DNA of 64,000 nt from Ectothiorhodospiraceae bacterium 2226 (GTDB taxonomy: Bacteria; Pseudomonadota; Gammaproteobacteria; GCA-013348725): positions 1,538,501 through 1,602,500 of the forward strand of contig CP054689.1 in NCBI GenBank assembly GCA_013348725.1. The letters are read 5' to 3'. The notes below the pieces were generated by a model. The model saw only the letters and a program-made list of their open reading frames with translations. It did no database searches and was not told the origin of the DNA. Position 1 is the first letter of the stretch. Each line of letters starts with the position of its first letter. The translations under genes were made by a program, and so were the position numbers. Shown here one piece after another: positions 5,326 to 61,632 of this stretch.

Positions 5326-6357
5326 TCAGCCCTCGGCGAGCGGGTGCTCGTGGCGCGGGTCGCGCTCCAGCAGGGCCTGCACCGCCTCGCGGGGCGCGAC
5401 GCCCTCGTGCAGCACGCGGTAGACCTGCTCGGTGATCGGCATCTCCACGTGTTCGCGCTGCGCCACTTCCCACACCACGCGCGCGGTCTCGATGCCCTCG
5501 ACCACCTGCTTGATCTCCGCCACCGCCTCGGCCATCGAGCGGCCGCGCCCGAGCGCAAGGCCCAGGCGCCGGTTGCGGGATTGGTCGTCGGTGCAGGTCA
5601 GCACCAGGTCCCCCAGGCCGCCGAGGCCCATCAGGGTCTCGGTCTCGCCGCCGAGCTGCGCCGCGAGGCGGGTGGCCTCGGCCAAGCCCCGTGTGATCAG
5701 CGCGGCGCGGGCGTTGGCACCGTAGCCGAGGCCGTCCGAGATGCCGGTGGCGATGGCCAGCACGTTCTTGACCGCGCCGCCGACCTCCACCCCGACGATG
5801 TCGTGCGTGCGGTAGGCGCGAAAGTGATCGTCGTGAAAGCGCTCGACCATCTCGCTGCAGAACGCCTCGTCCGGCACCGCCAGCGTGACGGCCGTGGGGT
5901 AGCCGCGCGCGACCTCGGCGGCGAAGGTCGGTCCCGACACCACCCCGAGCGGCACCTGCCGACCGAGCACCTCCTCGGCGACTTGGTGAAGCAGCTTGCC
6001 GCTGCCGGCCTCCAAGCCCTTGGTGGCCCACAGCAGGCGCTGGTCCGGGGCGCAATGCGGCGCGATCGCCTCGAGCGTGCCGCGAAAGGCGCCGCTCGGT
6101 ACCGCCACCAGGACATCGCGCGAGCGGCGCACCGCCGCACCGAGGTCGTCTTCCAATACCAGGGTATCGGGCAGGGTGGTCTGCGGCAGGTAACGCGCAT
6201 TGACGCGCGTCTCACGCATCTGCGCAATCTGGGCGGGATCGCGGCCCCACAACACCGCGGGCCGGCCCCCGCGGGCGAGCAGCACCGCCAGCGCCGTGCC
6301 CCAGGAGCCGGCACCCAGGACGCTGACCGAGCCCGGTGTGTAGCCTTGCCCGGCCAT
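5326..6357 (-). CDS. gpsA: NAD(P)+-dependent glycerol-3-phosphate dehydrogenase
   Basis: The 343-residue enzyme reduces dihydroxyacetone phosphate to sn-glycerol-3-phosphate for phospholipid synthesis. The nucleotide-binding motif VLGAGSWGTALA is at about residues 14-25, and the substrate domain contains KGLEAGSGKLL, VSGPTFAAEVARG and the catalytic-Lys region GGAVKNVLAIATG. The ATG at 6357 sits 2 bp after the secB stop. The frame stays open further upstream, through secB in another frame, but that extension is not part of this protein. The pairing with secB is the conserved gammaproteobacterial order. Confidence 0.94.
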   Translation of the reverse strand: MAGQGYTPGSVSVLGAGSWGTALAVLLARGGRPAVLWGRDPAQIAQMRETRVNARYLPQTTLPDTLVLEDDLGAAVRRSRDVLVAVPSGAFRGTLEAIAPHCAPDQRLLWATKGLEAGSGKLLHQVAEEVLGRQVPLGVVSGPTFAAEVARGYPTAVTLAVPDEAFCSEMVERFHDDHFRAYRTHDIVGVEVGGAVKNVLAIATGISDGLGYGANARAALITRGLAEATRLAAQLGGETETLMGLGGLGDLVLTCTDDQSRNRRLGLALGRGRSMAEAVAEIKQVVEGIETARVVWEVAQREHVEMPITEQVYRVLHEGVAPREAVQALLERDPRHEHPLAEG

Positions 6358-6359
6358 AC

Positions 6360-6881
6360 TCAGCTCGCGCTGGCGCCCGACTCCGGGGCGTCCTGCTGCG
6401 CCGCCGCTTTCTGCTTCTCGCGATGCTGCGCATAGAGCTGGTCGAAGTTCACCGGCGCGAGCAGCAGCGGCGGAAACCCGCCCTTGGTGACCAGGTCGGC
6501 GATCACCTCGCGCGCGAAGGGGAACAGCACGTTGGGGCAATAGCTGCCGAGCATGGCGTTGCGCTCTTCCTCGGGGAAGTTCGCCACGTTGAACACGCCG
6601 CCCTGCTGCACCTCGACCAGGAAGGCGGTCTTGTCCTTGAGCTTGGTGGTGACCGTCACCGCCAGCACCACGTCGTAGACGCCGTCGCCGAGGGTCTCGC
6701 CGGTGGTGTTCAACTCCACGTTGACGCTCGGTTCCCACTGCTCGGTGTAGATGCGCGGGGCGTTCGGCGCCTCGAAGGAGACGTCCTTGACGTAGATCTT
6801 CTGGATGGAGAACTGGCGGCCGGTGGCGGCTTCGCCGGTGGCGGCGCCGTTGCCGCGTGCGTCGGTGTTCTCGGTGGCCAT
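6360..6881 (-). CDS. secB: Protein-export chaperone SecB
   Basis: This 173-residue cytosolic chaperone keeps preproteins unfolded and delivers them to SecA. Family hallmarks are FSIQKIYVKDVSFEAPNAP at about residues 23-41, the acidic SecA-contact strand YDVVLAVTVT and the conserved NFPEEERNAMLGSYCPNVLF and GGFPPLLLAPVNFDQLY segments. Both ends carry Ala-rich extensions common in high-GC genomes. It is followed by gpsA with 2 bp between them. The repeat element at 6951-7095 separates it from trxC upstream, so it may have its own promoter. Confidence 0.95.
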   Translation of the reverse strand: MATENTDARGNGAATGEAATGRQFSIQKIYVKDVSFEAPNAPRIYTEQWEPSVNVELNTTGETLGDGVYDVVLAVTVTTKLKDKTAFLVEVQQGGVFNVANFPEEERNAMLGSYCPNVLFPFAREVIADLVTKGGFPPLLLAPVNFDQLYAQHREKQKAAAQQDAPESGASAS

Positions 6882-55958: not shown

Positions 55959-56303
55959 GCGTGGCCCGCGCTCCAGAATGGATTGCTTCAGACCGCTTTA
56001 AACCCCGCTTTTCGCGTTGCGTGGTCTGAGCCATCCATGGATGGATGGATTCAGGCCTTCCCGCGGCACAGGGATGTGCCGCCATGATCGACGGCCGCAG
56101 GCCGCCGATCATGAAGCAACGCGGAAATCACACTTTTCGCGTTGCGTGGTCTGAGCCATCCATGGATGGATTCAGGCCTTCCCGCGGCACAGGGACGTGC
56201 CGCCATGGTCGACGGCCGCAGGCCGCCGATCATGAAGCAACGCGGAAATCACACTTTTCGCGTTGCGTGGTCTGAGCCATCCATGGATGGATGGATTCAG
56301 ACC
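55959..56303 (-). repeat. Tandem cluster of the dispersed hairpin repeat (copies F)
   Basis: Read on minus from 56303, two complete units (56303-56179 and 56178-56058, 125 and 121 bp) follow one another, then a partial unit and an end fragment (55994-55959). Each unit has the GGTCTGA-type hairpin built on CCATCCATGG, a GCAACGCG / GCGTTGC arm pair, a long palindrome CATGATCG...GATCATG (56083-56113 in one copy) and GGCGGCACA / TGTGCCGC. The units differ by four bases, one GGAT, in the first hairpin. The cluster fills the 459 bp gap between the PAS gene and the esterase stop. Confidence 0.85.
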
Positions 56304-56308
56304 TTCAA

Positions 56309-57279: not shown

Positions 57280-57306
57280 AAAAAAAAGGGCCCCATAAAG
57301 GGGCCC
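57280..57306 (-). terminator. Rho-independent terminator after soxZ
   Basis: On the minus strand a GGGCCCC-TTTAT-GGGGCCC stem is followed by eight T residues, 21 bp after the soxZ stop. It ends the soxYZ message. Confidence 0.93.
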
Positions 57307-57327
57307 TCGGGATCGCGGCGGGTCGCC

Positions 57328-57686: not shown

Positions 57687-58151
57687 TTAGCCGCCGCAGC
57701 CGCCGATGGTGACCTTCACTTCGCGGCGCGCGGTGTGCAGCTTGCCGTTGGACTGCACCACGGCCACCACGTCGGAGGTGCGGGCCATCTTGATGCGGGT
57801 GGCCACGAAGCCTTCCGCGTTGGCGGAGAGGTCGAACTTGCCGGCCAGCGGGGAGTCGTTCTTCTCCACGATGATGGCGATGGACTCCGGGTTGGCAATG
57901 CCGGTGTTGATAGTGACCGGTACCACGGCGCCGTTCTCGGCGATGTCCGGGGCGGTGATCTCGATGTCGCCGCTCTGTTCGGTGCCGGCACCCTGGTACA
58001 GGTTCTGCAAGACGGCATCCATGGAATCGGCCTCGAATGCGCCCTTCGGCCACTCGGCCAGCACCGCCTGCGGGGCCAGCAGGCCCGCGCCCGCCGCCAC
58101 AGCCACTGCGCTACCCGCGAGGGTGCCCTTCAGAAAGACTCGACGCTGCAT
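57687..58151 (-). CDS. soxY: Thiosulfate oxidation carrier protein SoxY
   Basis: The 154-residue protein has a Tat signal peptide (RRVFLKG followed by a hydrophobic stretch to about residue 32) and ends in the mobile GGCGG arm whose Cys152 carries the sulfur substrate. PVTINTGIANPESIAIIVEKNDSPLAG is typical. The ATG at 58151 has a GAGGAG site. A sigma-54 promoter lies 50 bp upstream. soxXAB and soxCD are not in the window, so this is a stand-alone soxYZ unit. Confidence 0.96.
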   Translation of the reverse strand: MQRRVFLKGTLAGSAVAVAAGAGLLAPQAVLAEWPKGAFEADSMDAVLQNLYQGAGTEQSGDIEITAPDIAENGAVVPVTINTGIANPESIAIIVEKNDSPLAGKFDLSANAEGFVATRIKMARTSDVVAVVQSNGKLHTARREVKVTIGGCGG

Positions 58152-58200
58152 GTGCGTGCTCCTCTGCTTTGGTGGAATAAGAGTTCTCACCCGATAAGGC

Positions 58201-58216
58201 AGCAAGCCGCGTGCCA
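58201..58216 (-). promoter_or_regulatory. Sigma-54 (-24/-12) promoter of soxYZ
   Basis: The minus-strand sequence TGGCACGCGGCTTGCT fits the consensus TGGCACG-N4-TTGC(A/T) at every defined position and has the GG-N10-GC spacing. The predicted transcript would start about 40 bp before the soxY ATG. RpoN promoters need an enhancer-binding ATPase, which is encoded directly upstream. Confidence 0.9.
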
Positions 58217-58233
58217 AGTTACGGCGGTCGTCT

Positions 58234-58246
58234 TTTCAATGACTTG
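58234..58246 (+). promoter_or_regulatory. Possible IHF site upstream of the soxYZ promoter
   Basis: TTTCAATGACTTG matches the IHF core WATCAA-N4-TTR at all but one position. It lies between the sigma-54 promoter and the direct-repeat activator sites, where IHF usually bends DNA to bring the activator to RNA polymerase. Confidence 0.5.
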
Positions 58247-58281
58247 CGGCGCACCCGGTCCGCGCGCGGCACGTGGGGGTC

Positions 58282-58315
58282 GCATTCTGCAACGTGCGCG
58301 CCGTGCATTTTGCAA
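58282..58315 (-). promoter_or_regulatory. Two direct-repeat activator-binding sites (UAS) for soxYZ
   Basis: On minus, TTGCAAAATGC (58315-58305) and TTGCAGAATGC (58292-58282) differ at one base and are 23 bp apart, about two helical turns. Each is an imperfect palindrome TGCA-N3-TGC(A/G). They start immediately after the regulator stop codon and lie about 65-100 bp upstream of the -24 box, the normal place for sites of an NtrC-type activator. Confidence 0.72.
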
Positions 58316-59685
<1,370 letters not shown>

Positions 59686-59689
<4 letters not shown>

Positions 59690-61632
59690 GACTTGGTCTC
59701 CGCTGACTGGCGTGCCGCCGCCGCCGGCGGCGCAGGGTGCGCCGCGGCCGGCAGCCGCAGCGTGGCACGTGCCCCGCGCGGCGCCGTGTTCTCGATCTGC
59801 AGGCTGCCGCCATGGCGCTCCACGATACCCAGGCTGATGGACAGGCCGAGGCCGCTGCCCTCGCCGACGTCCTTGGTGGTGAAGAACGGATCGAACACCC
59901 GCTCGAGCAGGCCGGGATCGATACCGGGGCCCTGATCCTGTATCTCCAGGCGCACGTCCTCGCCGCTGAGCCCCAGCGTTACCCGCACCACGGCGCCCGT
60001 CGGGCTGGCTTGGATCGCGTTGCGCAGCAGATTGATCAGGGCCTGCTGCAACTGGCCGCGGTCCCCCTCCAGCGCCGCCACCCCCTCATTGCTAGCCGCC
60101 ACCACCACCTCGCGCACCTGCGCCTCGTGCTCCACCAAGGCCACCGTCTCGGCCAGCCAGGCGTCGGCCTCGAACACACTGACCTGCGGCGGCACCTGAC
60201 GTGCGAAGTTCAGGATGCCCTGCACGATCCGCCCGGCGCGCAGGGTCTCCTCGCGCAGCGAGTCCAGGTCCTGGCGCGCGGGTGCGTCGTCGGGCAGCGT
60301 GCGTCCGACCAGCTTGGACAGCGACAGGATGTTGTTGAGCGGGTTGTTGAGTTCGTGCCCGATGCCCGCCGCGAGCTGGCCGATGCTGGCCAGCTTGGCG
60401 TTGTGCAGCATCATCGCCTGCGCCTTGTCGCGTTCGGCGCGCGCCTTCTCCAGCGTATCCGCCATGTAGGTGAAGGCGTTCTGCAACTCGTCGATCTCGC
60501 GCAGCCCCTGGCGCTCCAGGCGCAGGCGCCGGCCGTTGTCGGCGTAGGCCTTGAGATTGTGTGCCAGGCGGCTCACCGGTCCGGCCAGGCGCCGTGCGCC
60601 GATCTGCGCGAGCCCCAGCGCGGCGAGCAGGGCGATCACCGCGAACAGCACGATGGCGATGCGGATGCGGTTGAACGGGGCGCCGATGTGGCCCGGGTCC
60701 ACGCGGCTCGCCACCACCCAACTCACCAGCAGGGTCGGGTACGGGTAATACTCCACGAAGTGGTACTGGTACTGGTCGCGCACCATGCCGTGCGGGCGCA
60801 GGTCCAGGGCCGCGAGCAGCGGGTGGTCGGGATTCAGGCGGCGCGGCTCGTCGAGCAGCCGCCCGAAGCGCACCCCGGTATGGTCGTCGTACAGCAGCGC
60901 GCCGTGGCGCGCCGGGTCCTCGGGGTTCACCTCCGCGATGAACAGCCGTCCTTGGTAGGGGCGCGGCGCGAAATCCAGGATGCGGTCGAGTTGGGCGCCC
61001 TGCACGTTGATCGCGAGGTAGCCGATCACCTCGCCGGCGCCCGCCAGCGGCACCACGTAATCCAGCATCGCGGGCCGCCACGCGGCACTTTGCGTCTCGC
61101 GGCGCTGCGGCAGCAGGGCGTAGCCGAGCTGCCCCGGCGGGAGCGCCGCGAGCGTGCGCATGAACTCGGCGTCCTGGACCTCCTGCTCCACCAGCGGGAT
61201 GCCGTCCAGGCTGTCGTAGGCCGCCTCGCTGCGGCGCGCATTGCGCACCATCAGCAGCGTGTTGCCGCGCACGTCCAGCACCCGCATGCTGTAGATGCCC
61301 GTCAGCACGTTCTGCACGTCTTCCAGAAAGGCGTTGAGGCGCTCGGAGCGCGCGCCGTACTCGGCATGCAGGCGGCTGTCGGCGGCGTCGGCCAGCACCG
61401 GCAGATAGTCCGTCAGGGCGGGCGACTCGGCCAGGCCGAGAATTATCTCGCGCTCGCCCTGCAGGCGCCGCCCGACCTCGGACACCACGGCGCGCAGCCC
61501 CGAGTCTACCTCGCGGCTCACTTCGTTGCGGTGGCTGTGCTCGGCGTAGTAGGTCGCCGCCAGCACCAGCGCAATGAGCGGCACCACCGTGGACAGGAAC
61601 ACCCACCAGAATATGTTCGACCTAAGTGTCAA
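59686..61632 (-). CDS. Membrane sensor histidine kinase, partner of the sox regulator
   Basis: The 648-residue kinase has an N-terminal membrane helix (about 10-28), a large periplasmic double Cache-like domain (30-320), a second helix (about 327-348), HAMP (350-400), HisKA (LAAGIGHELNNPLNNIL, phospho-accepting His) and HATPase (NLLRNAIQAS; GEGSGLGLSISLGIV). The start codon is TTG at 61632 with an AAGGTGAG site. Its last four bases overlap the regulator gene. A periplasmic sulfur compound is a plausible signal because of soxYZ, but the ligand cannot be read from sequence. Confidence 0.93.

Follow-up and report, generated by a model that had tools for sequence, protein, structure and literature searches.

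A predicted sigma-54 control module at a second soxYZ copy beside a kinase/regulator pair in Gammaproteobacteria

The stretch of DNA analysed here (64,000 nucleotides, henceforth the window) comes from the 2.96-Mb chromosome of the sulfur-oxidising Ectothiorhodospiraceae bacterium 2226, and it carries on its minus strand the genes of a sensor histidine kinase and an NtrC-type response regulator, after which follow only soxYZ and then a terminator (Table 1). SoxY and SoxZ both score above their equivalog cut-offs and by this measure are true family members; the start codon of soxY (ATG at 58151) was chosen from the conserved MQRR...FLKG. An original prediction made from the letters alone had described the regulator as containing GAFTGA and as translationally coupled to a kinase with a large periplasmic domain, and each of these points was borne out. 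The motif is present in the translation of a protein of REC-AAA-HTH_8 architecture (Pfam PF00072, PF00158 and PF02954), there is a 4-nt overlap between the two genes at the kinase stop, and the kinase has HisKA and HATPase domains together with a predicted dCache sensor at about residues 26-322. The Pfam dCache_1 match is weak and below cut-off. An AlphaFold model of the first 420 residues (46 aligned sequences, pLDDT 87.7) matches dCache sensor domains, the best being 3lid (Z 20.1, rmsd 3.6, 249 residues), and the kinase is hence predicted to carry a double-Cache periplasmic sensor; the structure matches span receptors for many unrelated ligands. No NCBIfam equivalog for the kinase or the regulator scored above cut-off.

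Table 1 Features of the kinase-regulator-soxYZ locus in the window; promoter, activator and IHF-type sites are predictions
Feature	Coordinates	Strand	Details
Sensor histidine kinase, 648 aa, TTG start	59686..61632	-	Pfam HisKA, HATPase, HAMP
NtrC-type response regulator, 457 aa	58316..59689	-	REC, sigma-54 AAA+ with GAFTGA, HTH_8 (Fis)
Regulator stop TGA	58318-58316	-	Sequence
Distal activator dyad TTGCAAAATGCAC	58303..58315	-	99 nt from first base of -24 box; relatives 97-102 nt
Proximal activator dyad TTGCAGAATGCGA	58280..58292	-	76 nt from first base of -24 box; relatives mostly 75-80 nt
IHF-type site TTTCAATGACTTG	58234..58246	+ (opposite to transcription)	30 nt upstream of -24 box
Sigma-54 promoter -24/-12 TGGCACGCGGCTTGCT	58201..58216	-	GC of -12 at 58203-58202
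soxY, 154 aa, Tat-type N-terminus, GGCGG C-terminus	57687..58151	-	TIGR04488 165 bits, cut-off 125
soxZ, 103 aa	57328..57639	-	TIGR04490 137.5 bits, cut-off 76
Intrinsic terminator after soxZ	57286..57308	-	Strong; 9-bp stem and T-tract

Read along the minus strand from the regulator stop to the soxY ATG, the control region has the layout TTGCAAAATGCAC-N10-TTGCAGAATGCGA-N33-IHF-type site-N17-TGGCACGCGGCTTGCT, with a predicted transcription start near 58190. An ordered sigma-54 region between the regulator gene and soxY had been proposed at the outset; its elements are confirmed, the coordinates given for them were all right, and the case is stronger for the relatives considered below. The two activator sites, which lie 23 bp apart from start to start, are likewise both present, but what had been read as 11-bp direct repeats is better described as two imperfect 13-bp dyads of the form TTGCA-N3-TGCAA, with one mismatch each. 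The window contains no zero-mismatch match to TGGCAC-N5-TTGCW other than the -24/-12 element. The chromosome has five zero-mismatch TGGCAYRN4TTGCW sites, this one included, and in it the pair of activator sites (UAS) occurs a single time even if up to 3 mismatches are allowed. The IHF-type site differs from the consensus WATCAANNNNTTR at one position. Matches of this quality are unremarkable on their own, as 7 are found across the window against 3.9 expected; within the 63-bp GC-rich stretch between dyad and promoter one arises in 0.5% of shuffles.

Relatives of the regulator were gathered from species genomes, yielding 68 loci of regulators that fall into one clade with that of the window (support 100 in the tree) and 40 loci of regulators outside it. 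With up to one mismatch allowed, the TTGCA-N3-TGCAA dyad occurs 45 times downstream of the clade regulators, compared to 0.5 expected from shuffles, and the loci outside the clade contain one site. Under a strict score that sets thresholds for both the dyad and the -24/-12 box, 33/65 regulator-proximal promoters of the clade pass, and about half fail, in part owing to contigs that stop short or to genes lying in between. The distances from dyad to -24 in the 33 passing promoters cluster at 75-80 (proximal) and 97-102 (distal), and 17 of them, including the window with its 30 nt, have an IHF match of at most one mismatch in one orientation 29-32 nt upstream of -24. Of the evidence for a genuine IHF site, this positional clustering in relatives is the strongest.

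A second set was anchored on soxY and comprised 40 promoters, those of the window and its relatives. The dyad and the -24/-12 box occur together upstream of soxY in 29 of these (0.05 expected from shuffles), and dyad, IHF site and box together in 19 (0.0 expected), expectations that overstate independence because related loci share ancestry and are not independent samples. Despite this shared ancestry chance is untenable, given that the spacing recurs and that most SoxY rows have diverged to about 45-80% identity. None of the four control soxY genes in soxXYZ-type operons, namely the second copy in the same genome and three in TspR-type clusters (see below), has the module (0/4). Where soxY and the regulator are set apart by other sequence (L045, L054 and L057) or soxY lies on the opposite strand from it (L081, L083 and L087), the operator sits at soxY, and where a second soxYZ follows (L051 and L055) it accompanies that second copy and is absent at the regulator. 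Judged from these rearrangements, the putative module belongs to soxY and stays with it at loci where soxY no longer adjoins the regulator gene.

The order kinase-regulator-soxY(Z) is kept in many Chromatiales-type genomes, lysA frequently flanking the opposite end, and other clade regulators adjoin soxB, soxX-soxA, fccAB or dsrE-like genes. The tandem soxYZ copies after the regulator in L051 (7461-8246) and L055 (7465-8250) have the operator only at the second copy; the first copies are more diverged, with 49-50% SoxY identity. At the first soxYZ copies of L051, L052 and L055, directly beside the regulator, no sigma-54 box is recognisable. Several contigs of relatives end inside soxY, as is expected for duplicated soxYZ.

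Regulators of the NtrC type activate sigma-54 RNA polymerase from enhancer sites, a textbook mechanism and the most likely one here. The initial reading, a sigma-54 control region for soxYZ served by the adjacent regulator and kinase, is supported by the comparative evidence, by the GAFTGA motif and REC-AAA-HTH_8 architecture of the regulator, and by the presence in the genome of one rpoN (PF04552, 237.9 bits) and of ihfA (TIGR00987, 175.7 bits). We assign a probability of roughly 0.88 to this reading, in which soxYZ has a sigma-54 promoter with an IHF site and two enhancer sites and for which we infer binding, phosphorylation and RpoN dependence. The small periplasmic ligand that the dCache kinase would sense is most probably thiosulfate or another reduced sulfur compound, and the kinase would, as its family suggests, phosphorylate the co-translated regulator. 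Phosphorylated regulator dimers would then occupy the two dyads just downstream of their own gene, and IHF would bend the intervening DNA such that the GAFTGA loop of the AAA+ ring meets the sigma-54 polymerase at the -24/-12 element. Opening of this complex would start a soxY transcript that is expected to end at the terminator after soxZ. The switch would act on the second soxYZ and probably also on one or more periplasmic dsrE-like genes, among them that at 2666299, and it appears to increase the amount of sulfur carrier when needed, not that of the complete Sox enzyme set.

Alternatively, most soxYZ transcription could stem from sigma-70 polymerase reading through from the kinase-regulator operon, or else start at a promoter that went unrecognised, with the sigma-54 elements surviving as relics. 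The regulator and soxY are collinear and 164 nt apart, and a search for a terminator between them found none, so that read-through from the regulator operon may indeed contribute. As the main route it is very improbable: the elements are perfect or near perfect, they keep fixed spacing in diverged relatives and they are also found at soxY genes that do not lie downstream of the regulator. Moreover, sigma-70-type matches on the minus strand between 57000 and 62000 fall inside soxY and downstream of soxZ, and none falls upstream of soxY.

The predicted sigma-54 switch has to be placed among the remaining sox genes of the genome. The original prediction had soxYZ separate from soxXAB, a point in need of correction: the soxYZ of the window is an extra copy, as another resides in a soxX-Y-Z-A-A operon at 2353717-2357142 that includes two soxA genes in a row, and soxB is located alone elsewhere (916435-918216). 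Over 798 nt of DNA the two soxYZ copies show 89% identity, suggestive of recent duplication or gene conversion. No dyad was found upstream of soxX, and the soxB upstream region has only one two-mismatch dyad and no sigma-54 box. An operator common to the core sox operon was therefore rejected, and since neither soxXYZAA nor soxB has it, the switch concerns the second carrier copy.

A candidate second target is dsrE1, a dsrE-like gene at 2666158-2666763 (6159-6764 of locus L116). Its operator is a pair of related dyads, spaced by 22 bp, that precede a -24/-12-like box by 86 and 64 nt, and a rough calculation from dyad and box counts gives about 0.015 such co-occurrences expected in the genome. 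Among 17 dsrE-like genes examined, 5 have a dyad and a sigma-54 box (0.02 expected), and in a sister group of regulators a dsrE-like gene is the direct neighbour. On this evidence dsrE1, which would encode a periplasmic DsrE-like protein, is probably a further target of the switch. A loose genome-wide pattern of dyad plus sigma-54 box, with soxY and dsrE1 among its matches, was discarded; the matches were mostly judged to be codon-biased coding background, and the reversed control was much lower.

The genome encodes at least two paralogous kinase/regulator pairs, the regulators of which are 47% and 43% identical to that of the window. The former pair (1943881-1947235; the locus L117 spans 1943208-1947235) has a regulator of the same clade and is followed by another dsrE-like gene; the locus has a dyad, GTGCAAATTGCAC, and a perfect IHF match, and no consensus -24/-12 was found there. 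The latter (248128-250967; locus L115, 248128-253376) is divergent from a UspA-like and SulP transporter unit with a -24/-12 element of its own, TGGCACGGAACCTGCT, a sequence also present at 1524188. Its two dyads, TTGCA/ATGCA-N3-TGTAA, are 23 bp apart. The promoter of this unit (251117) was not counted as a target, as its dyads are nearer to TTGCA-N3-TGTAA and it faces its own paralogous pair. Both pairs may cross-talk with that of the window and may share its operator preference, in which case the activator at dsrE1 could be any of them. By extension, the operator at soxY might be real and yet be activated mainly by a paralogous regulator, for instance that at 1943881, as a case of cross-regulation or heterologous control; its membership of the same clade and the related dyads at dsrE-side loci fit such an arrangement, which the consistent position of orthologues of the adjacent regulator beside the soxYZ genes that have the operator makes very improbable.

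The original prediction had also regarded RpoN-dependent, kinase-controlled sox genes as little described, and in this general form the claim does not hold. Passages on the TspS/TspR system of Acidithiobacillus caldus describe sigma-54 kinase/regulator control of sox (Li et al. 2017, doi 10.1007/s00253-016-8026-2, as summarised in PMC6335251; also PMC12194929), with similar pairs in some other chemolithotrophs (PMC6335251, PMC12194929). The TspR UAS, TGTCCCAAATGGGACA, is located right after the regulator gene and serves a -24/-12 promoter for sox (PMC6335251). To go by these passages, the likeness to the window is evident in a sigma-54 kinase and NtrC-type regulator that adjoin sox genes and in activator sites just 3' of the regulator gene. 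TspSR, in contrast, drives a whole soxXYZA-hyp-B operon, whereas the window pair serves soxYZ alone, and its palindrome is TGTCCC-N4-GGGACA as opposed to TTGCA-N3-TGCAA. We located TspSR-type clusters by searching for the TGTCCCAAATGGGACA palindrome, with soxXYZA-hyp-B after the regulator; the genome of the window itself has no match to it with up to 1 mismatch. One TspR-type regulator is 39% identical to the window regulator, three such regulators group among themselves (support 100) and lie outside the 68-member clade, and the TspS-type kinase aligns with the window kinase over the catalytic core only (29%) and has a different sensor domain. One genome (G025) harbours both a TspR-type cluster and a member of the window regulator's clade. 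That the window pair is the TspS/TspR orthologue in another host, as the common logic of the two systems (PMC6335251) might suggest, is extremely improbable and was rejected on the tree, the 39% and 29% identities, the different operators and the co-occurrence in G025: the pair seems to work like TspSR but not to be TspSR.

In two of the TspSR-type clusters (L139, G025:C12 11389-12276, and L140, 137914-138837) the gene just before the kinase looks to us like one for a PhnD-type substrate-binding protein, and its product could belong to the signal input of TspS.

The gene order of the window has been noted before. In Thioalkalivibrio sulfidiphilus, Tgr7_0038-0041 comprise soxY, a sigma-54 Fis-family regulator, a sensor kinase and lysA, genes mentioned in passages of a paper to explain a broken contig in strain ALJ17 as a problem of duplicated soxYZ (PMC6382920); the relevant passages do not deal with the regulation of the locus. 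The synteny is that of the window, and the ALJ17 locus (L046) has the same dyads and -24/-12. NtrC/DctD-type systems with dCache kinases resemble the window pair in their REC-AAA-Fis regulator, paired UAS dyads, IHF bend and -24/-12 promoter, and the DctB sensor (3by9) is a fold relative of the window sensor (Z 14.3, rmsd 3.3, 219 residues); their operator, targets and presumably ligand differ. Unlike the window system, the ArsR-family repressor SoxR, which responds to sulfane sulfur and controls sox in response to thiosulfate in, for example, Hyphomicrobium denitrificans (PMC12423496), employs neither sigma-54 nor a kinase. A literature search covering mostly papers outside subscription journals yielded no description of the window operator or of regulation by the window pair, and the switch itself, like its operator and its target genes, appears undescribed. 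Sigma-54 two-component control of sox is as such already known; as far as sequence can tell, the window pair belongs to a separate clade and has another sensor, operator and target set.

Taken more broadly, the comparisons permit a tentative proposal, to which we would give slightly less than an even chance: that a widespread, as yet unnamed sulfur-responsive regulon exists in sulfur-oxidising Gammaproteobacteria, in which the supply of SoxYZ, and of DsrE-like proteins, is tuned by a dCache kinase and its enhancer-binding protein (bEBP) and is uncoupled from the Sox enzymes, by way of duplicated soxYZ copies that bear a portable UAS-UAS-IHF-(-24/-12) module. The predicted switch suggests that carrier supply is regulated apart from the Sox enzymes, and makes the kinase dCache domain a candidate periplasmic sensor of a reduced sulfur compound. 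The arrangement of TTGCA-N3-TGCAA, IHF site and -24/-12 at fixed distances provides a testable regulatory code for sulfur oxidation, applicable to a large group of mostly uncultured Gammaproteobacteria in which sox control is poorly known.

Elsewhere in the window, the intergenic region at 56000-56306, between a GGDEF gene and an alpha/beta hydrolase gene, contains direct repeats in which a 121-nt unit is present twice at 97% identity together with a partial third copy.
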